DNA of 42,777 nucleotides, taken from the NCBI GenBank assembly GCA_903881505.1, contig CAIRTM010000046.1, positions 1 through 42,777 on the forward strand, given 5' to 3'. Below are positions 1-24,243 of this stretch, in pieces. A program made the translations under genes and the position numbers. The notes under the pieces were generated by a model, which was given only the letters and a program-made list of their open reading frames with translations, searched no databases and was not told where the DNA came from. The stretch's first letter is position 1; each line of letters starts with the position of its first letter. The DNA comes from an uncultured delta proteobacterium. GTDB lineage: Bacteria > Desulfobacterota > WTBG01 > CAIYCZ01 > CAIRTM01.

Positions 1-43
1 CGATTGACAACCAGGCGTAGCGGGTGAGAGCGGAACGGCTCAT
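1..43 (-). CDS. Probable cation diffusion facilitator transporter, N-terminal codons only
   Basis: An ATG at 41-43 on the minus strand opens a frame reading MSRSALTRYAWLSI up to the window edge. From memory, a start of the form LTR-aromatic-AWLSI is common in CDF-family (CzcD/FieF-like) efflux transporters, just before the first membrane helix. An AAGGA lies about 11 bases upstream of the ATG. Only 14 codons are visible, so the family call is tentative. A metal exporter would fit the heavy-metal-type two-component system about 3.4 kb away. Confidence 0.4.
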   Translation of the reverse strand, partial: MSRSALTRYAWLSI

Positions 44-124
44 GGATGCATGTATCCTTTTATACTGACCGGTGCCGGAAGATGTACCACAGGCGCTGAT
101 AAAAAAATATCCTAAAAATCATCT

Positions 125-139
125 GGGTGCAGGTCACCC
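125..139. repeat. Small hairpin just past the transposase relic
   Basis: GGGTG (125-129) and CACCC (135-139) form a 5-bp stem with a 5-base loop, ten bases beyond the stop codon of the IS200-like relic. IS200/IS605 elements carry subterminal hairpins recognised by TnpA. The position suits a decayed right-end hairpin, but five base pairs can easily occur by chance. Confidence 0.25.
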
Positions 140-148
140 TAGGTGTCT

Positions 149-382
149 TTAATCAAATAATTTGATTTGGTCAAGCCTTTGATTATCGCTCTCTTGGTGC
201 CGTATGTATTTCCTAACCTGATCATCATCTCTTCTGCGCGTGGTCACAAAGCACTCGCGCGGCCAGAAATTCTCGCCTGTAAAATTTTTTCCGCTGCCTT
301 TTTCGGGCAGATACTGTATTTCTGTTTTCATGACACCGTATTGCAGCCTTAGCCGTAACTGTTCCAAAGAACACCGCTCCAT
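149..382 (-). pseudogene. IS200/IS605-family TnpA relic (C-terminal part)
   Basis: This 77-codon frame resembles the C-terminal third of an IS200-type single-strand transposase. It has an NFTGENFW segment (residues 33-40), a degenerate copy of the usual FWxRGYFVST stretch, then VRKYIRHQE and an LDQIKLFD terminus. Tyr59, in VRKYI, aligns with the family's catalytic tyrosine. The HUH metal-binding motif and everything N-terminal to it are missing, so no active transposase can be made. Recognisable similarity covers roughly 149-305; codons 1-26 look unrelated. A GGGTG/CACCC hairpin follows the stop and could be the remains of the right-end hairpin of the element. The assignment rests on remembered family motifs. 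Confidence 0.6.
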
Positions 383-389
383 CTACTCA

Positions 390-587
390 TCATCTGAACA
401 TGCCCTTTATATTCTTCCAATAGATACGTGCGTGAATCACCATTAAAGCTGAAAAAGCATACCCGACAAATGCATGCAGTCCCTCAAACTCTGCGATACC
501 AGAAATCGCAGCCAGGCCGAATGCTGACAAGAAAGTTATATTATAAATTCTTCTGTTGTTTTCACTCAAACCATTTAAGACCGTCAT
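390..587 (-). CDS. Small two-helix membrane protein (DUF4405-like)
   Basis: A 65-residue protein with two hydrophobic stretches (about residues 18-32 and 40-52). The second holds the pattern LHAFVGYAFSALMVIHARIYWKNI. Spaced histidines followed by an aromatic and Trp recall DUF4405-like small cytochrome-b-fold membrane proteins, in which His can bind heme. The start is strongly supported: GGAGGAAAT lies directly before ATG. It follows the methyltransferase gene on the same strand after 66 bases and may be cotranscribed with it. It is shorter than usual for the family and could be a truncated copy. Function unknown. Confidence 0.55.
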   Translation of the reverse strand: MTVLNGLSENNRRIYNITFLSAFGLAAISGIAEFEGLHAFVGYAFSALMVIHARIYWKNIKGMFR

Positions 588-653
588 ATTTCCTCCATCA
601 AAGTTATCCAGATTTTTTCACATAGAAAAAATACGCCCGCTGTGCACAGACGC

Positions 654-1268
654 TCAGGGCATATTAAAAAAACAAGGCCACCATGACGCACTGCGAAGAT
701 GCATCAGGAGTTCAGCGCCGAAGGGCAACAGTCCGGCCAGCCAGAGCCGCCGGGCTTCCAGCCTCATTGCCTTCAGGTTGACCACCACGGAATCGGACGA
801 CGCATAGTTTCGCGCGATTGGGATAATTCTGGGCGTCCTGAGTATATAATCGCAAAAGCGGTCCTTAAAAATTTTCATCAACACTTTTTCTTCGGCCGGG
901 ATAATCCTTTTAAGATAAACAACAGCAACCACCATGACCACTCCCAGAAGCAGCAGACTTTTTAAAAAAAATGCCGTGGCAAGGCCAAAGCATAAGCTGC
1001 CCAGATAAAGAGGATTGCGGCATATCGAGTACGGCCCCTGATCCTGCAATTGTTTATCTTTGCGACTGCCGATATACATCGTTGCCCAAATTCGCGATGT
1101 CAGGTACAGCATAAAACAGAGCCATCCCAGCAGTGTCATGAAAACATCAAGCGACGTATCTTCGCCAAGCCTTGGTTTGCTGAATACAGCCCCTGTAACT
1201 GCCGGGACAAAAAACAGCACGCCCATCCAGCCGCGATACCTAAACCAGAACGATTCCTTGACCTTCAT
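654..1268 (-). CDS. ICMT/PEMT-like membrane methyltransferase family protein
   Basis: A 204-residue integral membrane protein with hydrophobic segments near residues 10-30, 38-60 and 92-118. The region around residues 75-90 carries the GPYSICRNPLYLGS signature. This is the (G)PY-x-x-xRNPxY-x-G motif of isoprenylcysteine carboxyl methyltransferase-like and phospholipid methyltransferase-like bacterial proteins, which use S-adenosylmethionine. A PAEEKVLMKIFKDRFCDY segment matches the E-E/F-Y end of the same fold. Residues after about 150 form an unusual tail with a further hydrophobic stretch. I chose the ATG at 1268 because GGAGAG precedes it by 7 bases; a GTG 15 bases upstream lacks such a site. 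The substrate cannot be told from sequence. Confidence 0.75.
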   Translation of the reverse strand: MKVKESFWFRYRGWMGVLFFVPAVTGAVFSKPRLGEDTSLDVFMTLLGWLCFMLYLTSRIWATMYIGSRKDKQLQDQGPYSICRNPLYLGSLCFGLATAFFLKSLLLLGVVMVVAVVYLKRIIPAEEKVLMKIFKDRFCDYILRTPRIIPIARNYASSDSVVVNLKAMRLEARRLWLAGLLPFGAELLMHLRSASWWPCFFNMP

Positions 1269-1536
1269 GGAAATACTCTCCACTCTTGCTCTGCTATTAA
1301 TGCCTCACAGTGATTGATGAATATATTCTCTTTTTACCATCGCCACATAGGGCAGCATTTTCCTTCCCGCTGTCCCAAGTGCTGCACGCGCTATTGAACC
1401 GATGCATAGCTGAATGCTTTCTTAATATAAACAGTTTTTAAAAAAACAAGGGGAGGAGCCGTAATCATGGCATCTGCAAAGAGGGGAGTGTGATGCATGT
1501 TCCATGATTCCGGCCGGAGAGGTAGTACTATGAAAT

Positions 1537-3369
1537 TTAGCGTTGCTTTTCATGGGTGTGTTTTCTCAGGCGCATACCGGAATGCTTGCTTTTTTTTGCT
1601 TTGGGCGAAACCGGCAACAGGTAGCGGCATTTCAGCAGCGTCTTTTGCCAAAAGCCCACAGTAGCGCTGCGGCGCTGCGCAATCATCTGATCGATGTGCT
1701 GCGCGATATCAAAATAGACCCTGCGGCTGTAACTGCAGATAGTATGGGTATGGTCGTTTGCAGATTGAGCAAACTGCCGCACATCGCAGAGAGCAGCATG
1801 GGGCATGCGTGCCAGCACTTCATCAAGGGCCTTGTTCATGTCGCGGTGACGAAGCCATCTATCGTGCTCGGCCGGCTGGTCGCACGCTACCTCCGAACCG
1901 TTAAGAATAATGAGCAATCGGTCGCTGTCGATCTGATCGCAAAGCCAAACCATATTCTGCTTAAAAGTCTCCGCGTCCAGAGGGCCCGTAAAGACAAAGT
2001 TGTCACGGAACCATTCCCAAAAATCATTGGGAATGCTCTGTTTTTGGCTCAGACTGGCAGGATATTGCCCTGTACTCTGATTCGTGAGGTCCTCAGTGTA
2101 GTCGCCAAAAGCAATGCTAAAGTCGGAATTGCGATAACGGTAAAGACCTTGTGTATAATTGTCGAGTACGCTGTAAATATACACGTCGTGGCTGTTCGTG
2201 AAAAAATTTGTTCTGAAAGCCGACCGGTCAAAGAAATACAGCCTGTCGATGATCGGCCCGTAGTTGGTCAGCGTATGAAGATTGCACCGTTTCAGAATTT
2301 CCGTGTGAGAAGCATTCATCCGGTAGCCGGCGCCAGAGAGATCGCTCAACTCGAAGTCAAAGTGCGGACTCATCAGCAAATAATTTTGAACCTGCAGAAG
2401 ATCGCAGCTGACTCTGGACATGACACGCAGGGGCTTGCGTCGGATTTTAGCCTCCCTGTTCACGGAGGCAACTTCCGTGGCTTTTTCCGTAATCCAACTG
2501 CAGGGTCGGTCTGGCGAAAGCTGAACGGCAACCGGGCCCACAATATTGATATTTGGCAACCCGAGTTTTTTGTACACCCAGTTTTCTACTCCCATGTTCA
2601 TGATTCTGCGGGAAAACAGGAAGTGCTCGAGCATGCCGTTTTTCAGGGCGTAAAAGCCGCTGACACCGTAGTCGTCATACGTGTCCTGCACCCGAATAAA
2701 GCCAGTTTCAGTGTCGGGTTCGCGCACCACACCTTCAAGTTCCCGAAGTGTCAGCCAACGCTTAGTATAGTTGAGATGGTTGGTGCGGTTAATGAGGTCA
2801 AGAATCCTGTCGAGTTCAGCCGCGCAGTCATGATGTAAACGGACAGTAATGCCGCAGCTTCGCAGGAACTGCTCGTTGCCGCACTGCGCGCGTGCATGGC
2901 CGGCATGCTTCTGCTCAAGCAGTTTATAGTACCCGAGCCGCGACAGGTTTTGGTCGGTCATGCCGACGCACACGTCAAGGCTGAGAAGACCGGAAAGTAT
3001 TTCAGGCGACGATGTCTGTATACCCGGGCTGTAAAACTGCGCCTCGCTGAGGTTTAGCTGATGTTCGTCGATAAAAAGCACATTTTGTGGCTGTAGATGC
3101 ATATCAGCGATCAGATCCGCCACCAAAGTGCCCTTGGGCTGATACGCTATTTTCGGGAACACAAACCAGTCCCAGATGCCATGTTGTATCAGTTTCCGCT
3201 TCACGTCATCAAAGTTGTTTTTTGAGCAGATGGCACTCATGATGCCACGCCGGGCCAGCTCTATAACTGCATCGTGGTTGTGCTGTACGTAGTGTATCGC
3301 GCCTTCCGAGAGCGTCCCTTTCCAGAAGGTGTCATCAAGGTCCCAAATGACAAGCTTTACGGGTTGCAT
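1537..3369 (-). CDS. FkbH-type HAD-IIIC protein with long C-terminal extension
   Basis: This 610-residue protein begins with a HAD-IIIC phosphatase-like domain: DLDDT at residues 10-14 (nucleophile Asp10, acid/base Asp12), then WKGTLSEG, as in FkbH proteins. FkbH-like enzymes load or dephosphorylate a glyceryl unit on carrier proteins in polyketide pathways, or act in surface-glycan assembly. Residues about 170-290 match the GNAT-like second domain typical of FkbH (ILDLINRTNHLNYT, then YGVSGFYAL). Residues about 330-590 form an extension that may be an SGNH-like esterase fold; this is a weak inference. No carrier protein, ketosynthase or glycosyltransferase gene is adjacent, so it is an orphan here. 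The start has only a weak ribosome binding site (AGG), but the DLDDT spacing supports it. Confidence 0.8.
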   Translation of the reverse strand: MQPVKLVIWDLDDTFWKGTLSEGAIHYVQHNHDAVIELARRGIMSAICSKNNFDDVKRKLIQHGIWDWFVFPKIAYQPKGTLVADLIADMHLQPQNVLFIDEHQLNLSEAQFYSPGIQTSSPEILSGLLSLDVCVGMTDQNLSRLGYYKLLEQKHAGHARAQCGNEQFLRSCGITVRLHHDCAAELDRILDLINRTNHLNYTKRWLTLRELEGVVREPDTETGFIRVQDTYDDYGVSGFYALKNGMLEHFLFSRRIMNMGVENWVYKKLGLPNINIVGPVAVQLSPDRPCSWITEKATEVASVNREAKIRRKPLRVMSRVSCDLLQVQNYLLMSPHFDFELSDLSGAGYRMNASHTEILKRCNLHTLTNYGPIIDRLYFFDRSAFRTNFFTNSHDVYIYSVLDNYTQGLYRYRNSDFSIAFGDYTEDLTNQSTGQYPASLSQKQSIPNDFWEWFRDNFVFTGPLDAETFKQNMVWLCDQIDSDRLLIILNGSEVACDQPAEHDRWLRHRDMNKALDEVLARMPHAALCDVRQFAQSANDHTHTICSYSRRVYFDIAQHIDQMIAQRRSATVGFWQKTLLKCRYLLPVSPKAKKSKHSGMRLRKHTHEKQR

Positions 3370-3481
3370 TCGCAGGCCTGTTCTTGATCGAGATAATCGG
3401 TATTTGTACTGCCTTGCAGTATAACGGCGAATAATTACGGGACTATCACAGGAGTATTAAAAAATACTAATTTCGGATGGT

Positions 3482-4906
3482 TTATGCGATATGCGGAAAC
3501 AGGAGGGTAACGGTTGTGCCGCGGCCCGGAGCGCTGTGTATGTCTACCGTACCGGCGTGCAGATCCATAATTGATTTGACAATGGCAAGCCCAAGTCCCG
3601 ATCCTGTCGCATCCAGGGTGCGCGCTGACTCGGCCCGAAAAAAACGATTGAAAATATTGTGGATGTCATCAGGATGAATGCCGATGCCCGTATCGGAAAC
3701 GGCAATAATGGCATTCTTGTGGGCGTCCTGAACAATGCTAATCTCGACTGATCCACCATCGGTGGTGTAGCGCAGGGCATTGGACAGCACATTGCTGAGT
3801 GCCCGTCGCAACAACAGCTGATCGGCTGTAACTGCTGCGTTTCCCTCGATGGCAAGCGTGATATTGTTTTCATGAAACAGCTCAATAAAATAATCGGCAA
3901 CGGTATGCGTTTCCGCTGCGGCATCAAGCTTTGCGCGTTCGACCTTAATGTCAGTACTTTCGGCTTTGGCAAGAAACAACAGGCTTTCTATCATATGCCC
4001 CAACCGCGAAAACTCTTCGAGGCTCGATTCGATATTCTGCTGATACTGCAGTGGTGTTCTGGGTTTTGCAAGCATCACCTCGGCTTCACCGATCAGGTTG
4101 TTGATGGGGGTGCGCAACTCATGGGCAAGATCAGCCGAATAATGAGACAGCCGCACAAAGGACTCCTGCAGCCGATCAAGCATGCCGTCAAAGGCTGTCG
4201 CCAGGCTGGTCAATTCCCGGGGCCACTGATCAGGGTTTACCCTCGCATTGAGCTGGGTCGCTTTGATCCTCTGAATTACCGCGGTGATGCGCGCCAGAGG
4301 GCGCATGGCCCTGCGCGCCAGCACCATACCGGCAACTGCTGAAATGAGAATGCCGACCAGAAGAACTCCCTCGGCCATAAAACGATAACGGCGCACAATG
4401 CCGGCTTCACGGGACACGTCAAGCGCTGCCTGGATGACATAACGGCTGTCGGAGCCCGCCAATGTTGACAGCAGCAGGTAGGCTCGGTCTTTGGATAGCT
4501 TTTTTTTAGTAATCTCAGGCGTTGACCCTGGGTCTGCGGCAATGCCTTCAAAAAGTGCCTGCGGGGGACTCTCTCCTGTAGTGCTTGTCTGAGCATATGT
4601 CCCGCCATTCGCTTCAAGCACAACAATATGATATCTTAAAAACTGAAGATCGGAGCCTTTGTGAATTTCATTTGCCACCATTCCACGGTCGACCATATCA
4701 CGGTTAAGAAGCGCTTGGATGCGCATAACTTTTTCCCGAAGAAAAAGCATATCCTCTTCCTCAAGGCTTTTGAGCAGCGAATAATACAGTGCGCTGATGG
4801 TCACGGCGAGAATGGAAAATGTGATAAGGGTATATGTTACTGTCAGGCGGTTCGTGATAGAAATGGTCGGCCGGGATGACTTATTCCTCGCGCTGTTCCA
4901 GAACAT
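3482..4906 (-). CDS. Heavy-metal-type sensor histidine kinase (CusS/CopS-like)
   Basis: This is a 474-residue membrane sensor kinase. It has TM1 (about 22-45), a periplasmic sensor region (about 46-177), TM2 (about 178-198), HAMP (about 199-252), a HisKA H-box with phospho-accepting His262 (DLAHELRTPINN), an N-box (SNALRYT), and the ATP-lid glycine motifs DTGIGI and GSGLGLAIVKS. The layout and H-box context match the CusS/IrlS heavy-metal sensor group. I chose the ATG at 4906 because GGAG lies 6 bases upstream; it overlaps the end of the response regulator gene by 26 bases, so translation is probably coupled. Longer in-frame starts reach 4996 but run deep into the regulator. The signal is unknown; the periplasmic loop has no Cys or His cluster that would reveal a metal. 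Confidence 0.88.
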   Translation of the reverse strand: MFWNSARNKSSRPTISITNRLTVTYTLITFSILAVTISALYYSLLKSLEEEDMLFLREKVMRIQALLNRDMVDRGMVANEIHKGSDLQFLRYHIVVLEANGGTYAQTSTTGESPPQALFEGIAADPGSTPEITKKKLSKDRAYLLLSTLAGSDSRYVIQAALDVSREAGIVRRYRFMAEGVLLVGILISAVAGMVLARRAMRPLARITAVIQRIKATQLNARVNPDQWPRELTSLATAFDGMLDRLQESFVRLSHYSADLAHELRTPINNLIGEAEVMLAKPRTPLQYQQNIESSLEEFSRLGHMIESLLFLAKAESTDIKVERAKLDAAAETHTVADYFIELFHENNITLAIEGNAAVTADQLLLRRALSNVLSNALRYTTDGGSVEISIVQDAHKNAIIAVSDTGIGIHPDDIHNIFNRFFRAESARTLDATGSGLGLAIVKSIMDLHAGTVDIHSAPGRGTTVTLLFPHIA

Positions 4907-5558
4907 AGCCGACTCCGCGAATGGTGTGAATGAGCTTAACAGAGTACGGATCATCTGTTTTAGCCCTGATACGGCGTATGACAACATCAACGACATGAGG
5001 GCTGCTGTCGAAGTTTATGTCCCATATGTGCTCGGCGATCATCGTGCGAGAAAGCACCTGACCCGCACGCTGTGCAAGCAGGCTCAGGAGCGAAAATTCC
5101 TTTTTCGTGAGCTCGACAATATGGCCCGCGCGCGTAACACGGTGGGAGAGCAGGTCGACTTCAAGGTCGGCAATGATGATCCGGTCCTGCTGCTGCATAG
5201 GGCCGCGCCTTCTGATGACATGAATGCGGGCCAACAGTTCGGAGAACGCAAACGGCTTTATTAAATAGTCGTCGGCCCCGAGATGCAGTCCCTTGACCCT
5301 GTCGTCCACCCGGTCGCGTGCCGTGAGAAAAATGACAGGGGTCTGCTTTTTCCCTTTTCTGAACTCCGAAAGAAGGGCCCAGCCGTCCATGCCCGGCAGC
5401 ATGACATCAAGAATCACCAGATCATAATCGATACCCAGAGCCATACTGAGCCCATCGCAGCCGTTGTGCATAACATCCACGGCAAAGCCGTTTTCCGTCA
5501 GGCCTCGCTTCAGGAACTGTGCTGTTTTGATTTCGTCTTCAATGACAAGAATACGCAT
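4881..5558 (-). CDS. OmpR/PhoB-family response regulator (CusR/CopR-like)
   Basis: A 225-residue transcription regulator with a receiver domain (residues 1-115) and a winged-helix DNA-binding domain (about 125-222). The acidic pocket is seen as EDE at 7-9, and the phosphorylation site is Asp51 in VILDVMLPGMDGW. The switch Thr is in FLTARD and the conserved Lys in LIKPFAF. The C-terminal LTKKEFSLL and VVDVVIRRIRAK stretches are typical of the CusR/CopR subgroup. It is the first gene of the pair with the kinase and is divergent from the membrane/flavodoxin/zinc-ribbon operon, which is a natural candidate target. The ATG at 5558 has only a weak ribosome binding site. Confidence 0.92.
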   Translation of the reverse strand: MRILVIEDEIKTAQFLKRGLTENGFAVDVMHNGCDGLSMALGIDYDLVILDVMLPGMDGWALLSEFRKGKKQTPVIFLTARDRVDDRVKGLHLGADDYLIKPFAFSELLARIHVIRRRGPMQQQDRIIIADLEVDLLSHRVTRAGHIVELTKKEFSLLSLLAQRAGQVLSRTMIAEHIWDINFDSSPHVVDVVIRRIRAKTDDPYSVKLIHTIRGVGYVLEQREE

Positions 5559-5943
5559 AGCAAAAATTCACCGGATCGTGCTCTCAACACGTCTATTGGT
5601 TTGCCAGCCCCGGCACGTTTAATCGCGAGGGCAATCAGGGCGCGAACGGTACGCTTCATCTGAATATATCAGTTGAACATCTCATTTTCATTACAAAACT
5701 CTTGAAAAATTTAAAAACAGGCATATAGGCACGCATTCTCCCAAAAGTCTGCGCAACCACGCCACCACGTTCCGATCGACAGATTCTTTAAATTTTTTAA
5801 TGTTTGTGAAACACAACTGTAACCTGCAGGAAGTAGTATACCATACAATGCATTACACGCGGCCATTGCAAGGCAATCTCATGGCCGTGACGGAGGCCAC
5901 AGGCAATAAACGGTGCAACGGAACTTGTAACAGGAGAATCTCC
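5559..5943. other. Divergent intergenic region between two-component system and membrane/flavodoxin operon
   Basis: This stretch of about 385 bases has no convincing gene; the frame that continues from 5800 into the next gene lacks a ribosome binding site until 5944. It is AT-rich in the middle (about 5680-5810) and must hold the promoters for both flanking transcription units. A short inverted repeat TTGTG-AAA-CACAA lies near 5804-5816. No clear regulator box with two matching half-sites could be identified by eye. Confidence 0.5.
5702..5729 (+). promoter_or_regulatory. Possible sigma-70 promoter for the 5944-8168 operon
   Basis: TTGAAA (5702-5707) and TATAGG (5724-5729) are separated by 16 bases on the plus strand in the intergenic region before the membrane protein gene. 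The resulting leader would be a little over 200 bases. The match is moderate, and AT-rich DNA gives such hits by chance. Confidence 0.3.
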
Positions 5944-6687
5944 ATGAAAAGAACCATTTTCATCGGCCTTTCAGGCATTCTTTATTTTGCCGTTTCGCTG
6001 GCGCTGTTCATGCCGTTTCGCATGAAGCCCATCGAAAACTACAATCTCTTTGCGCTGCCGCTGTTTGCCGCCGCTTTTCTGTTTCTTTTGTACAAAGCCT
6101 GCACGGTTAAAAAGGACACACGGGGGTATTTGTACGGCTATTTCGCAGGTATACTCATGTGGCAGCTTCTCGGCGAAACAGCCTCACTGAAAGTACCGGC
6201 CGGCGCGATCCTGCAGTTCAGCGATATGAACATCAAGCTGCTTGGCGGGTATTTCTATGCCTTGGCGGGCTGGACGCTTTTATATATGCTCTGGAAGCTC
6301 AAGATGCTCAACAGCCGCGCGGCCTATGCTTTTGTGATTTTTCTTGGGATATGGTCGTTTGAGCTCTACATGGACAACTATTCCTCCCGCCTGCCGCTGT
6401 ATATGATGGGCATGGTTGCCAATGCCATCATGGTCGTTTCTCTCGTCGCAACCATCGTGGTTCTGGTCATGGCAAAGCGCACAACAAGCATTGAGCGCAA
6501 AACAGTACTTGGTGGCGTTTTTTATATTATCCTTAATATCCTGCTGTCGGCCTCCGGCCCGTGGAAGCTGCCCCAAAGCTTTTATCTCAAATATGAAATT
6601 CCGGCGCTTCAGCAGGAGCTTATAGATACCCAGCGTGAGCTCGACCATATCAGGCAGCTGCAAATGCAGATGATTTATTTGAAATAA
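5944..6687 (+). CDS. Polytopic membrane protein of unknown function
   Basis: A 247-residue protein, almost entirely hydrophobic, with about seven predicted membrane helices (starting near residues 4, 32, 62, 94, 122, 148 and 178). A short amphipathic, Gln/Glu/Leu-rich tail (about residues 218-245) looks like a small coiled coil in the cytoplasm or periplasm. The ATG at 5944 is preceded by GGAG with 6-base spacing, which excludes the upstream in-frame codons. It is the first gene of a three-gene operon, 36 bases before the exported flavodoxin-fold protein and divergent from the two-component system. I do not recognise a family. There are no clustered cysteines and no regularly spaced histidines that would suggest heme binding. 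Confidence 0.75.
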   Translation: MKRTIFIGLSGILYFAVSLALFMPFRMKPIENYNLFALPLFAAAFLFLLYKACTVKKDTRGYLYGYFAGILMWQLLGETASLKVPAGAILQFSDMNIKLLGGYFYALAGWTLLYMLWKLKMLNSRAAYAFVIFLGIWSFELYMDNYSSRLPLYMMGMVANAIMVVSLVATIVVLVMAKRTTSIERKTVLGGVFYIILNILLSASGPWKLPQSFYLKYEIPALQQELIDTQRELDHIRQLQMQMIYLK

Positions 6688-6723
6688 CCCCTTTTTTCTT
6701 ACACATAGCGAAAGGATCCATCC

Positions 6724-7857
6724 ATGAAACAATCCGTAAAAATGCTGCTGGTGCTCATTGCTGTTGCCGGTCTCTGGCTGCGGCCTGCAGTTTGTCAGGC
6801 CGAAACAAAAAAAGGCTTGCTGATATATGATTCCAACTACAGCTCGACCGCAGAGGTTGCCTACTGGCTCAAGGCCATCATAGGCAACGAGCAACCGTTG
6901 GACGTTAAAAAAATCGATCAGGTCATTACCGTAAAACCGTATGATTATGTGATATTCGGCAGCTATTCAAAATGGGAGAAACCTTCGCCGCGGATTTACA
7001 AATTTATAGAATTCTGGAAGGACGAACTGGCAAAAAAACAAGTGTGCTACTTTCTGACAGGCGGAGACTGGGATGAAACCATGGTGCTCAAGGCCCCTGG
7101 CTCGCCGGTTAAAATTATCGCTGGCAGAAACTATCTGTTTGATCTGCAGGAGAAATATCCTGACATCAAGCCGGTGATCCTGGGCGGCTTCGGCGGCAGG
7201 CAGGTGCTGCCGACATTGCAGGGAACAGACGGGTTCATGATCTGGCTGCTTGAAAAACTATCTCGCGAAGGCGCACACTGGGTAGGCCTTGATATATGGG
7301 AATCGCTTGTTCCCGAGCGCGTTGAAGTATTCGGCAATGAAGTGCGCACGCAAATTTTAGGGCTCCCCCCGCTTGCGGATGTACAAAAATACCGCGGATT
7401 CTGGGATTCGCTCCAACCAGCCTCGCTGACGGATCCCACAAAAATAAAAACAACGACGCTTGTCACGGAAGACGGCGGCAAGACATGGGTTGCCAAAAGC
7501 AAGCGCCCCTACACAGTCAAGCAGAATTCCCCCAAAATCTATTACTCCCGCTCGCGCATCAAGGCCGACCTGCCCGCTGCCGTGAAGCTGCTGGAACAGT
7601 GGTCCGCAAAAGAAGGCTATGCGCTGGAGGAAAAGAAAAAAGCGTCCTATATGGTGTACTATAATGCCGTCAAAAATATCAACGGCAAGGACATGATCAT
7701 CTACATCGTTGCAGCTACCATGCCAGATGATCCGGGGAATGTTCATGTTTCCTTCCGGACCTGGGACAAGCCCGACGTGCGAAAGCCAATGGAAGATGCC
7801 ATTGACAAGGGCGAGCAGGTCCTGTGGGCCGATGGAAGACAAGTCACAGGACGATAA
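6724..7857 (+). CDS. Exported flavodoxin-fold protein with C-terminal extension
   Basis: This 377-residue protein starts with a Sec-type signal peptide (residues 1-27, likely cleaved after CQA, no twin arginine). Residues about 30-190 resemble the HemG/flavodoxin_5 group: a first strand and phosphate loop (LLIYDSNYSSTAEVAYWL), then the DYVIFGSYSKW strand-loop and a KKQVCYFLTGGDWDE strand. About 180 further residues follow that I cannot assign. Flavodoxins are normally cytoplasmic FMN proteins, so Sec export is odd: the cofactor would have to be acquired outside, or the fold may be used without FMN. AAGGA seven bases before ATG supports the start. It lies between the membrane protein and the zinc-ribbon gene. 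Whether it binds flavin is not established. Confidence 0.7.
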   Translation: MKQSVKMLLVLIAVAGLWLRPAVCQAETKKGLLIYDSNYSSTAEVAYWLKAIIGNEQPLDVKKIDQVITVKPYDYVIFGSYSKWEKPSPRIYKFIEFWKDELAKKQVCYFLTGGDWDETMVLKAPGSPVKIIAGRNYLFDLQEKYPDIKPVILGGFGGRQVLPTLQGTDGFMIWLLEKLSREGAHWVGLDIWESLVPERVEVFGNEVRTQILGLPPLADVQKYRGFWDSLQPASLTDPTKIKTTTLVTEDGGKTWVAKSKRPYTVKQNSPKIYYSRSRIKADLPAAVKLLEQWSAKEGYALEEKKKASYMVYYNAVKNINGKDMIIYIVAATMPDDPGNVHVSFRTWDKPDVRKPMEDAIDKGEQVLWADGRQVTGR

Positions 7858-7880
7858 ACGTCTATTAAAGGAGACAAGAG

Positions 7881-8168
7881 ATGAATTGCCCTATTTGCAG
7901 TGTCCCGCTTGTAATGAGCGATCGTCAGGGAGTTGAAATCGACTACTGCCCTACATGCCGCGGAGTATGGCTTGACCGGGGCGAACTTGATAAAATCATC
8001 GAGCGCTCGACAGCTGAATTGCGGCCGGCGCAGTCCACCCCTGCCCCGGCTGCGCCGGAGCAGGGATACCAGAACAGCGTCTATTATGACAAACATCATG
8101 ATAGTCATCATGGAGACCGCTATCACAACAAGCGCCGAAAAAGCTTTCTTGAACAATTGTTTGATTGA
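7881..8168 (+). CDS. Zinc-ribbon protein (zf-TFIIB family) with His-rich tail
   Basis: A 95-residue protein whose first 45 residues form a TFIIB-type zinc ribbon: CPIC at 3-6 and CPTCRGVWLDRGELDKI from about 24. The two CxxC knuckles and the WLDRGELDKI helix are the family signature. A Pro/Ala-rich linker leads to a His/Asp-rich segment (YYDKHHDSHHGDRYH) and an SFLEQLFD terminus, which is also common in this family. Its biochemical role is not known; the His-rich part could bind metal. AAAGGAG seven bases before the ATG supports the start. It is the last gene of the operon, 23 bases after the flavodoxin-like gene, and metal binding would suit a heavy-metal-type regulator next door. Confidence 0.85.
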   Translation: MNCPICSVPLVMSDRQGVEIDYCPTCRGVWLDRGELDKIIERSTAELRPAQSTPAPAAPEQGYQNSVYYDKHHDSHHGDRYHNKRRKSFLEQLFD

Positions 8169-8442
8169 TTCACCCGGGACAAACAGGGCTCGACAGCATT
8201 GACGGGCCTTGTCACCTTAAAAATTGACTGCAATTATGTGCTGACGTACACCATGAAACTCGACTGTCGCAAAGTTTCGATTGTTGCTTGCCATTTGTGC
8301 AAGTACCGTAAAATTCAGCCAAACCCGAGTTCTACATCAGGTTACTTCTTGCCATAATTTTGCCAAAAGCGGTTAAGTAAAGGTAAATCTCGGGAAAATA
8401 ATTAGATTAGAGGATACATCACGATCAGCCTAACCACCTGAG

Positions 8443-8495
8443 TGTATTTACTTTTTTAAAATACCTGATTTTTAGCCGATGTGACTGTATTTACT
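8443..8495. repeat. 10-bp direct repeat flanking the attachment-site region
   Basis: TGTATTTACT occurs at 8443-8452 and again at 8486-8495, 43 bases apart in the same orientation. The right copy runs into the tRNA-Asp anticodon loop. Repeats of this kind near an att core can be recombinase or excisionase binding sites; this is inference. Confidence 0.4.
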
Positions 8496-8500
8496 GTCAC
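8481..8500. repeat. 20-bp dyad across the presumed recombination core
   Basis: GTGACTGTAT-TTACTGTCAC reads as GTGAC-T-GTA-TT-TAC-T-GTCAC. Both arms match their reverse complement except for two symmetric T:T positions and the central TT. The right arm is the tRNA-Asp anticodon loop (CTGTCAC); the left arm is not tRNA sequence. Inverted core-type sites around an anticodon loop are what tyrosine recombinases use, so this is the likely crossover region. Confidence 0.5.
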
Positions 8501-8538
8501 GCCGAAGGGCGCGGGCTCGAGTCCCGTCGTCCCCGCCA
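8494..8538 (+). tRNA. tRNA-Asp(GTC) 3' half; probable att site remnant
   Basis: The sequence reads as tRNA-Asp from the anticodon loop onward: loop CTGTCAC (8494-8500) with anticodon GTC at 8496-8498, 3' anticodon stem GCCGA, variable loop AGGGC, T-stem GCGGG/CCCGT around loop CTCGAGT (8511-8527), acceptor strand CGTCCCC (8528-8534), discriminator G73 (8535), and encoded CCA (8536-8538). G73 and GTC are tRNA-Asp identity features. The bases upstream cannot supply a D-arm, a 5' anticodon stem or the GGGGACG acceptor strand, so the gene is cut at the anticodon loop. A displaced 3' half of this kind is the usual scar at the distal end of an element integrated into a tRNA gene. Confidence 0.88.
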
Positions 8539-8546
8539 GTTTTATC

Positions 8547-8577
8547 AAGCACTTAGCTCGCAGGGCTAAGTGCTTTT
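8547..8577 (+). terminator. Rho-independent terminator after the tRNA-Asp fragment
   Basis: A perfect 11-bp stem AAGCACTTAGC / GCTAAGTGCTT (8547-8557 and 8565-8575) with a 7-base loop is followed by TTTT. It lies nine bases past the CCA end and was probably the terminator of the original tRNA-Asp gene. Confidence 0.8.
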
Positions 8578-8718
8578 CATTTCTGGTTGCGGACAGGTTG
8601 CGTTGTGCTTCAGGCCGGCGCATAATTATTAATGTTGTTTCACAGATAATCAATATAAATACCTAAAATAAGTTTTAATTTTATACTAAGGATTACTTTT
8701 TCTTCAGCTATTACAAAA

Positions 8719-8743
8719 GCCCGGAATCAATGAGATTCCGGGC
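8719..8743 (-). terminator. Hairpin terminator, minus orientation
   Basis: A 10-bp perfect stem GCCCGGAATC / GATTCCGGGC with a 5-base loop. On the minus strand it is followed by TTTT, so it would stop leftward transcription. No minus-strand gene lies immediately to its right; it may insulate the junction region from read-through. Confidence 0.5.
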
Positions 8744-8890
8744 CTAATGTATTGTGCCGCAACGGCACTGTGCGCTTCCCGACTCCCCGATCCCGCAGGG
8801 CTGGCGTAACGTCTGCGTCTGTGATAATCTGGCTACCGTCAAAAAACGGCGCACTATCAGCGAAACACCGATGCCAAGGAATACCGGCCC

Positions 8891-9265
8891 ATGGACAATA
8901 TCGCAGGCATCATAACCATAAACCTGGCGCTGGCGTGTTATTCCATCGGCGTATGGAGCGAGAGGATATCGGCACAGTTGAAACCCTGGCATGTGGTGTT
9001 CTTCTGGTTCGGGATCGTATTCGACACCTGGGGCACCGGGCTGATGTTCGCCGGCGCGGACGGGATGACCTATGACGTACACGGCCTGAGCGGCGTTCTG
9101 GCCATCGTGCTCATGCTGATCCACGGGGTCTGGGCCACCGCGGTACTTCTCAGGAAGGATGAAAACCTGATCGCGAACTTCCACAAGTTCAGCGTCACGG
9201 TCTGGCTCATCTGGCTTATTCCCTACCTGAGCCCCATGCTGCTCATGGTGGCCGCACGGGCATAG
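8891..9265 (+). CDS. HsmA-family small membrane protein
   Basis: A 124-residue membrane protein with four hydrophobic helices (about residues 6-20, 32-50, 66-88 and 100-121). The segments YSIGVWSERI, LKPWHVVFFW, DTWGTGLM, HGLSGVLAIVLMLIHGVWA and NFHKFSVTVWLIWL match the HsmA family (TIGR03987-type) as I remember it. The conserved histidines within helices could bind heme or metal. The function of this family is poorly defined. AAGGA about ten bases upstream supports the ATG. The overlapping 187-codon minus-strand frame is rich in His, Pro and Gln and looks like an antisense shadow. A strong terminator follows the gene. Confidence 0.75.
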   Translation: MDNIAGIITINLALACYSIGVWSERISAQLKPWHVVFFWFGIVFDTWGTGLMFAGADGMTYDVHGLSGVLAIVLMLIHGVWATAVLLRKDENLIANFHKFSVTVWLIWLIPYLSPMLLMVAARA

Positions 9266-9286
9266 CCGTTCATACACCACAACTTT

Positions 9287-9322
9287 AAAAAAGGGACGCA
9301 GCAGCACCGCGTCCCTTTTTTT
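9287..9322. terminator. Bidirectional terminator between convergent genes
   Basis: The stem GGGACGC (9293-9299) / GCGTCCC (9309-9315) is flanked by an A-run on the left and a run of seven T on the right, so it can terminate transcription in both directions. It lies between the convergent HsmA-like gene and the octaheme cytochrome gene. Confidence 0.85.
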
Positions 9323-9380
9323 GCATTTCCCTCTATGGCACTGAGTTCGTCAGCGTCCGCGAGCGCACGGCGCGCAGCAC

Positions 9381-10646
9381 CTAGCGGGCGCCATCGCCGC
9401 GCAGATCAGGCACGTCGATGCCGGGCCTCAGATTGGGCCCCTTCTCATACGGCGCACCGGGAACGTAGGGCGCCGGGTCGGGCCGGCCGAGTTTCTTCAG
9501 CCGCTCCGCTTCGTGCCACAGCTCGATGTAGCGTATCTTGGTTTCATGCGCGCCGTGCCACCAGGCGTAATCGGGCCCCATCATGGCCGCGCCGATGCGC
9601 ATGCGCCGGCCCTCGTGATGCCACAGGTACCAGTACAGCCATTCGGCCTTTTCGTCAAAGGGCCTGGGCGTAAGCAGCTTTTTCTCCTTCAGCTCATCCA
9701 TGATCTTTTTCGCGGGCCTGAAGTAGTTCTCCGTGTAGTCAGCGACCACATGGTCGAACTTTTCAAAAAACGCGTCGGCATGGCGCGACACGTGGCACTG
9801 CATGCACACGGCCCGCATGGCCTCGCGGTTCTTCTTCGCGACCTCGGGCTGGGGCGTGTGGTTGATCTTGTCCTTCTGCACAGTCGACTCGGGCGCCTGC
9901 AGCTCCCAGTACAGCCGCGAGCCGATATCATGCGTTGCAGGGATGATCTCTTTGCCGGTGGCATTGTCCCGTACGGGGCCCATGTGGCAGGTGTAGCAGG
10001 TGGGCGCCCATTTCTCGCCGGCAGCGTGCAGCTTGCCGTGTTTTGACTCCTCATAGATTTCGATCTGCGGATGATCGGGTCCGAGATGGCAGCGGCCGCA
10101 GGTGGTGGGGTTTTTGGCCTCATCAAGTGAGAAGCGGTGATGCGAATGGCACACCGTGCAGGTGCCGAGGCTGCCGTCGGGATTGAGGCGGCCTACGCCG
10201 TTGTTGGGCCAGTTTATCCAGTCGGTCGTGTCCTTGACGATCGAGCCGTGGCACATGTAGCAGCCGATCGCGCGCTCGGGATCGCTGTTGGCGCCCTTGA
10301 CCGTCCAGGGGTCCTCCAGCACGTTGACGAAAAAATGCAGCGTGGCGGCATGCTTGGTGCCTTTCTGCTGGGAAACCTCGTCCTCATGACAGTTCGCGCA
10401 GACCGCGGGCGACACGACAACCGCGACTTTTTCCGGGCAGCGGTCGCTGACGATCGTTTTGGTTATTCCCGGATCGTGGCAGGCAAGGCAGCCGATCTCG
10501 TTCTGGCCGTGTTTGCTGCCGCGCCACTGCTCAACCACCATGGGAGAGCTTTTTTCATGGCATGACAGGCAGTTTTCCTCCTGGGCGGCCGCACGGACCG
10601 GCAGCACAGCAAGGCAGCAGATGAGCATAGGCACGCGTGTGTTCAT
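9381..10646 (-). CDS. Octaheme c-type cytochrome, hydroxylamine oxidoreductase (HAO)-like
   Basis: A 421-residue exported cytochrome with a signal peptide (about residues 1-21, cleaved near RAAA-QEE) and eight CxxCH heme sites at residues 26, 53, 83, 129, 163, 183, 217 and 281. Their spacing, the GPDHPQIEIYEESKHG segment before heme 7 and the long helical C-terminal third (about 290-421) resemble the HAO/octaheme superfamily, which handles N-oxides such as hydroxylamine or nitrite. It is shorter than nitrifier HAO, and I cannot confirm the Tyr crosslink that separates oxidative from reductive members. GGAGGAGG five bases before the ATG fixes the start at 10646; the longer in-frame N-terminus is not coding. 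No nitrite reductase or quinol dehydrogenase partner is adjacent. Confidence 0.85.
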   Translation of the reverse strand: MNTRVPMLICCLAVLPVRAAAQEENCLSCHEKSSPMVVEQWRGSKHGQNEIGCLACHDPGITKTIVSDRCPEKVAVVVSPAVCANCHEDEVSQQKGTKHAATLHFFVNVLEDPWTVKGANSDPERAIGCYMCHGSIVKDTTDWINWPNNGVGRLNPDGSLGTCTVCHSHHRFSLDEAKNPTTCGRCHLGPDHPQIEIYEESKHGKLHAAGEKWAPTCYTCHMGPVRDNATGKEIIPATHDIGSRLYWELQAPESTVQKDKINHTPQPEVAKKNREAMRAVCMQCHVSRHADAFFEKFDHVVADYTENYFRPAKKIMDELKEKKLLTPRPFDEKAEWLYWYLWHHEGRRMRIGAAMMGPDYAWWHGAHETKIRYIELWHEAERLKKLGRPDPAPYVPGAPYEKGPNLRPGIDVPDLRGDGAR

Positions 10647-11051
10647 ACATTCCTCCTCCCGCTCAATTTTTGTTGTGAACCCGGACAGCGGCCGGGCGGA
10701 AGCACTGCCTTCACCCGGAAGCCGGCGGCCTTCTGAAAAACATCGGCAGAAAACCGTTCCACAATACAACATTTCAGCGCGATGGCGAAACTATAGGGAG
10801 GATGCCGGCAGCTGTCAAGAAAACAATGATCCTGCCGGACAGAAGCGGTATCAGACAGTAACCCGCGCACTATCCTTAGAGGGTGCAGGCGCCCCTTGGG
10901 TTGCGAACCGGCCATACCGGGCCGGTCATTGCCTGCGGCAGACGTTTCACGGCATCTTTTTTTAAACCCGCGCGTTGCCAGGGACCGCGGGCAAAAAAAG
11001 GCGCTGGCCGGATGCCAGCGCCCGTGAACAGCGCACACCTTCTTGTCGGTC
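10647..11051. other. Intergenic region upstream of the octaheme cytochrome gene
   Basis: About 400 bases with no supported gene. It must contain the cytochrome promoter. It also contains the terminator of the foldase gene (10993-11022) and a 7-bp GC hairpin (ACCGGCC/GGCCGGT, 10907-10926) without a T-run. Confidence 0.5.
10993..11022 (-). terminator. Rho-independent terminator of the minus-strand xerC-to-foldase block
   Basis: The 9-bp stem GGCGCTGGC / GCCAGCGCC (11000-11008 and 11014-11022) with loop CGGAT is preceded on the plus strand by seven A, which is a T7 tail in minus-strand RNA. It lies about 30 bases past the foldase stop codon and ends the long leftward gene block. Confidence 0.9.
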
Positions 11052-11936
11052 TTATTTGTAGGTCACCCGGTATTTCTTTTTTAAACTCTCCACATATTTT
11101 TCATAGGCTTCGCGCTGCTTTGACTGCTGCAGCCTGCGCTCTATTTTGGGCTTTGCAGACTCCAGGCTTTCCTCGGTACGCGGCTGCCGGTCATCAAGAC
11201 GGACGATGAAAAAGCCGAACTCGGTTTCAATCACATCGCTTATTTCGCCCTGCTTGAGGGCAAACGCGGCTTCCTCGAATTTTTTGCCGTAGATGCGCTC
11301 GCGCCGCCCCTCGGCAAAAAAGCCGGTCACCCCGCCGCGGCGCTGCGTGCGCTGGTCCTCGGAGACTTCCTTGGCGACGCCCGCGAAATCAGCTCCCTTT
11401 TGAAGGCGTTTGAGCGTTTCCCGGGCAAGCTTGCTCTTTTGCTTTTTTACATCAGGGGATGCCGAAGCGCCTGCTGCGAACATGATCACACTGGCGTTGA
11501 TCTGCTCGGGCCGCACAAAATCTTTTTTGTTGGCTTCGTAATAGGCTGCAATGTCCGCTCCGGAAACCGCGACATCGCCGGACACCTGCTGACGGGTCAG
11601 TTCCTGAACGATAATATTATCGGCCGCCTCCTTGATGCGCTTGGCGACATCAGGCTGCCTGTCGATGCCCAGCTGCCGCGCTTCCTGCGACATCAGGCTG
11701 ATCAGCACGACCTGATCGAGCAGCTGGCGGCGCCCGGCATCGGTTTCAAAACGGCTGCGTATCTGCGGCGGCAGCATCGCGGTCCTGGCATCGAGGTCGG
11801 ACTGGGTGATGCTCTCCGTGCCGACCGTGACCAGTACGTTCGAAGCGGCGCCCTCGGCGCGCACCGCTGCCGGCAAAGCCGCGCACGCGGCAATCATCAT
11901 GCATCCGCACACCAGCGTATTCATCCTGTATTTCAT
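11052..11936 (-). CDS. Parvulin-type peptidyl-prolyl isomerase (PpiC/SurA-like)
   Basis: This 294-residue protein has a signal peptide (about residues 1-27, AAVRA-EG). A SurA_N/PpiC-type helical domain follows (about 30-150: NVLVTVGTESITQSDLDAR, then helices), then a rotamase domain (about 155-255) with RRGGVTGFFAEG and FEEAAFALKQGEISDVIETEFGFFIVRL, typical of parvulins. It probably assists folding of secreted or outer-membrane proteins in the periplasm; it could be lost to the cytoplasm only if the signal were not used. I chose the ATG at 11936 because GAGGAG lies upstream; a longer in-frame start at 11981 would precede the signal peptide with 15 unlikely residues. It is the last gene of the block, 57 bases after dapF. 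Confidence 0.88.
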   Translation of the reverse strand: MKYRMNTLVCGCMMIAACAALPAAVRAEGAASNVLVTVGTESITQSDLDARTAMLPPQIRSRFETDAGRRQLLDQVVLISLMSQEARQLGIDRQPDVAKRIKEAADNIIVQELTRQQVSGDVAVSGADIAAYYEANKKDFVRPEQINASVIMFAAGASASPDVKKQKSKLARETLKRLQKGADFAGVAKEVSEDQRTQRRGGVTGFFAEGRRERIYGKKFEEAAFALKQGEISDVIETEFGFFIVRLDDRQPRTEESLESAKPKIERRLQQSKQREAYEKYVESLKKKYRVTYK

Positions 11937-11993
11937 AGTCAGCTCCTCGTTCGTGATCAAAAACGGCAACACGCAATCCATCCGCCGCCGCAG

Positions 11994-22633: not shown

Positions 22634-23187
22634 TGCTGCGGGCCGATCTCGTCAAGCGTTATCCGGGTGTTGGTATAGATGCAAATCTCGGCGGCAAGCT
22701 GCAGCGCGGCCTCGACGATTTCGCGCGCCCCGCGGTCGGTATGCCGCGCCAGCGCCCGGGCGGCGGCCAGCGCATAGGGGCCGCCGGACCCGATGGCCGC
22801 CATGTCGTCATCGGGCTCGATCACGTCGCCGTTGCCGGAGATGATCAGAAGATGCTCGCTGTCGGCAACGATCATCAGCGCCTCCAGATGGCGCAGCACT
22901 TTATCAGAACGCCAGTCCTTGGCCATTTCGACCGCGGAGCGGGTCATGTTGCCGTTATACTGCTCAAGCTTGCGCTCGAAGCGCTCAAACAGGGTGAAGG
23001 CATCGGCCGTTGCGCCGGCAAATCCGGCCAGCACCCGGTCCTGGTACAGGCGCCGGATTTTGCGCGCCCCGTGCTTGACAACGGTTGCGCCCAGCGTGAC
23101 CTGGCCGTCGCCGCCAAGGCACACGCGCCCTGCCCTGCGCACCGCGACAATCGTCGTTCCATGCATGGCCGCCATGGCTGTCTCCAT
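22630..23187 (-). CDS. hslV: HslUV protease peptidase subunit
   Basis: HslV is the proteasome-like N-terminal threonine peptidase of the HslUV complex. The catalytic threonine is expected at the [10 protein letters not shown] motif (Thr11 from the chosen start), to be exposed by removing a short propeptide. The GDGQVTLG and [11 protein letters not shown] segments are typical. The start at 23187 overlaps the stop codon of xerC (TAATG) and has GGAGGG six bases upstream; Met8 at 23166 is an alternative that would also leave a short propeptide. Confidence 0.96.
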
Positions 23188-24110
23188 TACAGGCCCTCCG
23201 GAACGATTTTACTGCGCGGATGGGCCCGGTCATAGACCTGCATCAATGCATCGACATGCAGATGCGTGTATCTCTGGGTTGTTGCCAGGCTGGCATGGCC
23301 CAGAAGTTCCTGAATGCCGCGCAAATCGGCGCCCGCGTTCAAAAGATGCGTCGCAAAGCTGTGCCGGATCGCGTGCGGGCTGATCTTGTGCGCGATGCCG
23401 CAGCGCTCGATCCAGCCGTCCAGCAGCCGCGCAACGCTGCGGCCTGAAAGACGGCCGCCCCGGCTGTTCAAAAACACCGGCGCCCGGTGTGCGCCGTGAA
23501 GCCTGCAGGCCGGCTCCTGCGAGCGTGCGCAGTAGCCGGCCACGGCTGCAGCGGCCTTGCGGCCCATGGGCACGACGCGCTCCTTGCGGCCCTTGCCTCT
23601 GACGAGCACCGTGCCTGCGCGCTGATCGATATCACAGCGGTTAAGCCCGACCAGTTCACTCAGCCTGATCCCCGTGGAATACAGGAGTTCCAGCACGGCA
23701 TGGTCGCGCGCATGCAGCAGCGTATCCTTCGGCACGGCATCCAGCAGCGCGAACATTTCATCAACGGTCAGGTGGCGGGGCAGCGTGCTGTCGCGCCTGG
23801 GCGCTTTGAGCATTTCAGCGGGATTGCCGCCTGCAAGCCCGTCGCGCACCAGAAACGAAAAAAACGTTTTCAGGCAGGAAAGCTTGCGCGCCTGGGTCGA
23901 CTTCCTGTTGCGCCTCGCGCAGTCGGCAAGATAGGCACGCACGGCCAGGGCATCGATATCAGCGATATTCGCAAACGAACCGATATGCGTGGAGCGCAGG
24001 AATCCGGCAAAATCCTCCAGGTCCCGCAGATAGCTCCGGCACGTACAGTCGGATGCATTCCTTTCAATGCGCAGATACTTCTCAAATGCACGAATCTGGG
24101 CTGACAGCAT
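23187..24110 (-). CDS. xerC: Tyrosine recombinase XerC
   Basis: XerC acts with XerD at dif to resolve chromosome dimers. The 307-residue protein has an N-terminal core-binding domain (about 1-90) and a catalytic domain with Arg149 (TGIRLSEL), Lys173 (RGKGRKE), His246 and Arg249 ([10 protein letters not shown]), His272 ([13 protein letters not shown]) and Tyr281. The ATG at 24110 ([13 protein letters not shown]) fits the family start, though its ribosome binding site is weak; in-frame starts up to 24230 would give a long atypical N-terminus. It precedes hslV with a one-base overlap, as is common in this and other phyla, and so is a housekeeping recombinase, not the integrase of the left-hand element. 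Confidence 0.93.
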
Positions 24111-24214
24111 AACCGGCCTGCAACGCCAACAAGACGGATGCGTATCCGTTTCAAAAAAAAATGAAAGCATATCGGCTTTTCGCCAAAGAATCAATCGAAA
24201 AATACATTTACTTC

Positions 24215-24243
24215 TTGCTAAAACAGGCAAAATTGAGTATTAC
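24215..24243 (+). promoter_or_regulatory. Possible sigma-70 promoter for coaD
   Basis: TTGCTA (24215-24220) and TATTAC (24238-24243) lie 17 bases apart in the AT-rich stretch between the divergent xerC and coaD genes. Each box matches consensus at four of six positions. Confidence 0.35.

Follow-up and report, generated by a model that had tools for sequence, protein, structure and literature searches.

Position 8494 of the analysed window (42,777 nucleotides, the whole of contig C46 in a 149-contig draft assembly, G000, of an uncultured deltaproteobacterium) most probably marks a decayed, integrase-less, CIME-like accretion joint at a tRNA-Asp hotspot, with metal-response cargo. We assign this reading a probability of roughly 0.7. 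An earlier note had interpreted the same scar as the distal, chromosome-side end of an island integrated in tRNA-Asp. A tRNA half beside foreign DNA need not mean that an island reaches its chromosomal end there; once the native flank was examined in a relative, the answer changed.

A tRNA-Asp 3′ half broken at the anticodon loop

The window contains the 3′ half of a tRNA-Asp(GTC) gene (8494–8538, plus strand), running from the anticodon loop (CTGTCAC) to the CCA end and identical at 43 of 45 positions (96%, E 2e-14) to positions 33–77 of the intact gene on contig C39 of the same genome. Its 5′ half is missing and the break falls in the anticodon loop, in agreement with what the earlier note had read from the letters. 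Two mismatches separate the piece from the intact copy (GGGCGCGGGCTCGAG here for GGTCGCGGGTTCGAG); one is located within the T loop, and they indicate that the piece is a relic and not a gene. ARAGORN called 0 tRNAs across the window and Rfam gave no match within 8300–8900, both of which are expected because only half a tRNA gene is present.

Attachment sites in the anticodon loop are well established, as is the displaced-fragment signature (Islander, PMC4383910; for the overlap region and the anticodon loop, PMC8371274), and about half of the Islander islands use the anticodon-loop start site (PMC4383910). We regard 8494–8538 as the probable core relic of an attachment site belonging to elements with tRNA-Asp(GTC) as their target, presumably recognized by a tyrosine integrase. 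As in a tRNA-gene island, this fragment stands at one end of the foreign DNA. The 20-bp dyad previously reported over the break does exist (8481–8500, 8 of 10 pairs) and is a possible core site, but it is imperfect and weak, as equally good dyads occur about once per kb in the window (P ~0.02 per 60-bp stretch).

Foreign DNA with metal-response cargo to the left

Both GC content and codon use change beside the piece. GC is 0.495 over 1–8493, 0.446 over 8494–8760, and 0.612 beyond, with the best change point at 8755 (range 8693–9353), slightly to the right of the tRNA piece, which agrees with element DNA on both sides of 8494. Codon use is foreign in every tested gene left of the scar (z −3.6 to −10.2) and host-like in every tested gene from 8891 onward (z −1.9 to +3.7), these z values being given without the spread of the reference genes. 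Foreign codon use is combined with lower GC in every gene from 654 to 8168, and the segment has no full-length match in the congener G001. The accessory, AT-richer DNA that the earlier note had placed left of the scar is therefore confirmed, but the AT-rich stretch does not end at the scar.

The cargo comprises, on the minus strand, genes for a PEMT/ICMT-type methyltransferase (654–1283; codon z −5.9), an FkbH-like HAD protein (1537–3369; z −10.2; NCBIfam TIGR01686, E 4e-29, below the cut-off), a heavy-metal sensor histidine kinase of the CusS/CopS/SilS type (3482–4996; TIGR01386, 373 bits, cut-off 292.55), and a heavy-metal response regulator of the CusR/CopR/SilR type (4881–5558; TIGR01387, 320.6 bits, cut-off 279.2). 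On the plus strand follow a membrane protein of no family (5800–6687; 85% amino acid identity to G008), a flavodoxin-domain protein (6724–7857; PF12724), and a TFIIB-type zinc-ribbon protein (7881–8168; PF13453). Compared with genome G008, the proteins of this block share 71–88% identity, against 40–69% for the neighboring core genes, suggesting that the cargo was probably transferred between lineages. In G008 the block adjoins CDF (cation diffusion facilitator) and ffh genes and is inverted relative to CDF.

On G008 contigs C264 and C43 (L105/L106), a metal-response block with a P-type ATPase-like gene lies beside CDF, fabD, and ffh, inverted with respect to CDF relative to the window. Near the left end of the window, 149–331 (minus strand) is a probable transposase relic (PHROG transposase, E 0.0024; related sequence at many G001 contig ends), for which the family name IS200/IS605 is our own reading. 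The stretch 135–277 matches at 78% a sequence that ends many G001 contigs and is probably a multicopy IS200-type transposase.

Putative element end to the right

Immediately right of the tRNA piece, the AT-rich stretch 8539–8760 appears to be what remains of an element that has lost its body, namely its near, integrase-side end. It contains a hairpin followed by a T-run (AAGCACTTAGC..GCTAAGTGCTTTT; 8547–8577, plus strand), which folds at −18.8 kcal/mol and resembles a bidirectional terminator; homologues follow the tRNA on C39, on C201 and C216 of G008, and in a tRNA-Thr element of G001. Two GGTTGCG repeats with 11-bp spacing (8585–8602, plus strand), read in the sequence, may correspond to arm-type integrase sites. 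Repeats of the same period follow the tRNA on C39 (GGTTGCG, GGTTGCG, GGTTGTG) and are also present in G008 (GGGTGCG twice).

The 64 bp that hold the hairpin and the repeats (8539–8602) align to the post-tRNA DNA of C39 with a score of 86, the best of 1000 shuffles reaching 27. They also align, above all shuffles, to G008 C201, G008 C216, and the tRNA-Thr element end in G001, and have no counterpart in the native 3′ flank of tRNA-Asp (G001, C120). A collection scan with the hairpin alone returned three virus contigs (IMG/VR); in two of these, by reading, the hairpin directly follows a tRNA 3′ half starting in the anticodon loop, and in one of the two an integrase lies just upstream. An exact tRNA-Asp 3′ half was not found in IMG/VR, and in phage and plasmid records only the tRNA part was matched (tRNA-Asp genes where annotated), the whole module in none. 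The matches on C39, in G008, at the G001 tRNA-Thr gene, and in two virus contigs, with none at the native flank, argue that the hairpin/repeat module belongs to elements. With element DNA on both sides, the scar at 8494 would be a junction.

In the tRNA-Thr element of G001, AlpA and the short relic of an integrase C-terminus, which scores weakly, adjoin the hairpin module. At this locus (L075:7763–8291), the same hairpin type follows tRNA-Thr together with the integrase relic and AlpA, and restriction-modification-like genes lie beyond.

The native tRNA-Asp flank and the locus at 8494

The intact tRNA-Asp gene whose existence the earlier note had predicted was found at C39:273–349, as part of a tRNA-Val/tRNA-Asp pair, 272 bp from the contig end. 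In the congener G001 the site is empty: downstream of tRNA-Val and tRNA-Asp come a terminator and then Kelch-like and ABC-transporter-like genes. The studied genome has the same native flank on C120, where a decayed tRNA-Asp 3′ end of 17–20 nt (TTCCCGCCGTTCCCGCC) stands before the orthologous terminator, and this flank is separated from C39 by foreign DNA. Because the empty-site flank of G001 is orthologous to C120, with its decayed tRNA-Asp end, sequence comparison places the right end of the native tRNA-Asp site's island on C120 and not in the window. The displaced fragment at 8494 is not continuous with the native 3′ flank and, with element-borne DNA to its right, is not supported as the distal end of the island. 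Beyond the decayed tRNA-Asp end on C120, we noticed an AT-richer tail with a beta-helix protein (L102/L104, 56240–58628), where the true tRNA-Asp island probably ends on its right side.

In the window, the first host-like gene right of the scar encodes an HsmA family protein (8891–9265, plus strand; TIGR03987; codon z −0.3). A host-like multihaem cytochrome c gene (9381–10772, minus strand; PF13447), which in G003 adjoins TlpA-like and CcdA-like genes, and a host gene for a SurA-like PPIase (11052–11981, minus strand) come after it; by gene-neighborhood comparison the latter is adjacent to dapF-lysA and next to ffh in G001. After the PPIase gene, G001 and the studied genome have different DNA. 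No second tRNA-Asp was found at the PPIase/ffh locus of relatives, and the start of contig C68 resembles, by reading, the end of a CcdA gene. Since the native flank is on C120, we infer that 8494 sits at another locus (cytochrome/PPIase) or reached it by rearrangement. This locus and the native tRNA-Asp locus could be joined by an inversion, their separation here resting on draft contigs.

A second tRNA-Asp 3′ half on contig C34 and its probable linkage to the window

The window starts within a CDF transporter gene (2–118, minus strand; N-terminal end) that apparently continues on contig C34 (5.3 kb). Residues 24–62 of the G008 CDF match the window start, residues 198–347 match C34:1–450, and the intact CDF of G001 predicts a 405-bp gap between the two parts. 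No second close CDF copy was found elsewhere in the genome. From this one split gene, on which the join rests, we infer that C34 and C46 are linked; as contig C46 ends with the window, the physical order C39-C34-C46 is presumed as well. We also considered that the split CDF might simply be a resident host gene in its original position, an idea weakened by its absence here from its G001 position. The host-like codon use of CDF inside the segment (z −1.1) counts against the accretion joint, as does the shortness of the direct repeats.

On C34, another tRNA-Asp 3′ half, likewise starting at the anticodon loop, is flanked by genes for an RND efflux protein and an M48 peptidase; C34 has the M48 3′ end in common with C39 (96% over 156 bp). 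If C34 and C46 join, two tRNA-Asp 3′ halves, both mutated, are ~10.5 kb apart, and no integrase lies between them. C34:1–1655 together with 1–8493 of the window contains no integrase or transfer genes, as in a CIME. An element continuing left beyond the window to an intact tRNA-Asp, as proposed in the earlier note, fits the foreign DNA on the left and the intact gene in the genome, but the nearest piece to the left is probably the second 3′ half on C34, not an intact gene. The intact cognate gene, which in a tRNA-gene island would stand at the other end of one replicon interval in the same orientation, is on a separate contig, C39, and the C34 half is the nearer partner.

Search for an integrase

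PF00589 had three matches in the assembly, namely XerD, XerC (23187–24230 of the window), and a prophage integrase on C37. The window XerC was considered as the element integrase and rejected, and the C37 enzyme adjoins a different tRNA piece; at L073:6631–7800 this prophage integrase is accompanied by a tRNA 3′ piece that belongs to another isotype. Six-frame reading and tblastn beside the tRNA-Asp pieces revealed no convincing integrase relic. The integrase thought likely to accompany the element on the left was thus not present in the assembled interval or beside any tRNA-Asp piece. The draft has gaps, and the unassembled DNA that separates C39 from C120 or C34 may contain an integrase.

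Proposed origin of the joint and rival explanations

We propose that elements targeting tRNA-Asp would carry, at their integrase-side end, a tRNA 3′ half, a terminator-like hairpin, and short repeats. Upon integration, the 3′ half brought by the element would complete the tRNA gene in the chromosome, and the resident 3′ half would be displaced to the far side. In piled-up elements, each joint would consist of the far end of one, a tRNA 3′ half, and the near end of the next. The window joint would then have on its left the far end of an integrase-less metal-response segment, probably extending ~10.5 kb back to the C34 3′ half, and on its right ~65–220 bp of the near end of the next element, followed by host DNA. 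Such a segment would be stable, or mobile only via an integrase supplied in trans (CIME-like). Secondary-site integration or rearrangement would account for a joint at the cytochrome/PPIase locus, away from the native tRNA-Asp 3′ flank.

A distinctly less probable history has the array start at the native tRNA-Asp (C39), pass through C34 and C46, and end at 8494. A chromosomal inversion or translocation that had one of its breakpoints inside the island would later have joined it to the cytochrome/PPIase locus and left the native flank, C120, elsewhere. C39, C34, and C46 do have element ends in common (the M48 3′ end, 96%, and the hairpin module), foreign DNA separates the C120 flank from C39, and the differing DNA after PPIase in G001 and G000 implies that a breakpoint exists there. 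This history requires an extra event, however, and if the G003 order CcdA-TlpA-cytochrome held, the C68 start and the window cytochrome would be neighbors, which a plain insertion fits equally well.

Very little weight is left for the model of the earlier note, a single island in tRNA-Asp with the intact gene far to the left, the window piece as attR, and the native flank to the right. The sharp composition change and the presence of a tRNA half and an intact tRNA in one genome suit it, but the native flank belongs to C120, element-borne DNA adjoins the piece on its right, a second 3′ half probably lies in between, and an integrase was not found. We consider it just as improbable that the scar was made otherwise than by an integrase, either by copying of the tRNA-Asp 3′ region through homologous recombination or transposition or as an assembly chimera at a tRNA repeat. 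The lack of an integrase nearby, the probable IS relic at the left end, and the 149-contig draft would be compatible with such an origin; the window piece nevertheless differs from the other copies, which speaks against an exact-repeat chimera, its break is at the anticodon loop as in C34 and two virus contigs, and tRNA-Asp pieces recur in G002, G008, and G025.

Starting from the accretion joint, one may speculate, with considerable doubt, that the tRNA-Asp 3′ half, hairpin, and repeats form a portable attachment module, with elements landing and accreting at non-tRNA loci and tRNA halves joining metal-resistance segments far from the tRNA gene.

Comparison with known systems

The feature appears mostly ordinary, the footprint of a well-known kind of integrating elements. 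Like the tDNA/tDNA-fragment islands of Islander (PMC4383910), the window has a 3′ fragment from the anticodon loop, adjoining foreign DNA, and an intact tRNA elsewhere. It differs from them in that no integrase is present in the assembled DNA, the nearest partner is probably a fragment, and the flank is not native; the Islander integrase filter would reject it. Integrase loss followed by accretion of more elements at the remaining att site gives rise to CIME-containing arrays, as described in PMC5704250 (citing Pavlovic et al. 2004). The window resembles this CIME/tandem accretion in having a segment without integration genes, probably between attachment-site relics, beside a further element end, but has no sign of an ancestral element with transfer genes and is known here from draft sequence alone. 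SGI1, whose primary site is the thdF 3′ end, has been shown both to integrate at a secondary chromosomal site and to form tandem arrays (PMC2297512), providing a precedent for both. The site of SGI1 is thdF, not a tRNA gene, and SGI1 is transferable, whereas no integrase was found for the window.

tRNA-Asp as a recurrent integration site in related genomes

These data document tRNA-Asp(GTC) as a repeated integration site, with metal-response cargo, in an uncultured deltaproteobacterial family. G006 has an integrase C-terminal relic (L072:9666–9896) shortly after tRNA-Asp. Other tRNA-Asp 3′ pieces are present in G002 (by reading, a decayed copy ~110 bp after the intact gene), in G008, and in G025 (39 nt, 6.3 kb after the intact gene). 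Finally, G005 (L070:1202–1578) and G003 (L071:4079–4455), which are of different genera, seem identical over the ~300 bp that follow tRNA-Asp. The encoded toxin-antitoxin and kinase proteins also match, and the tRNAs differ, so that the identity would reflect either very recent transfer or cross-binning.
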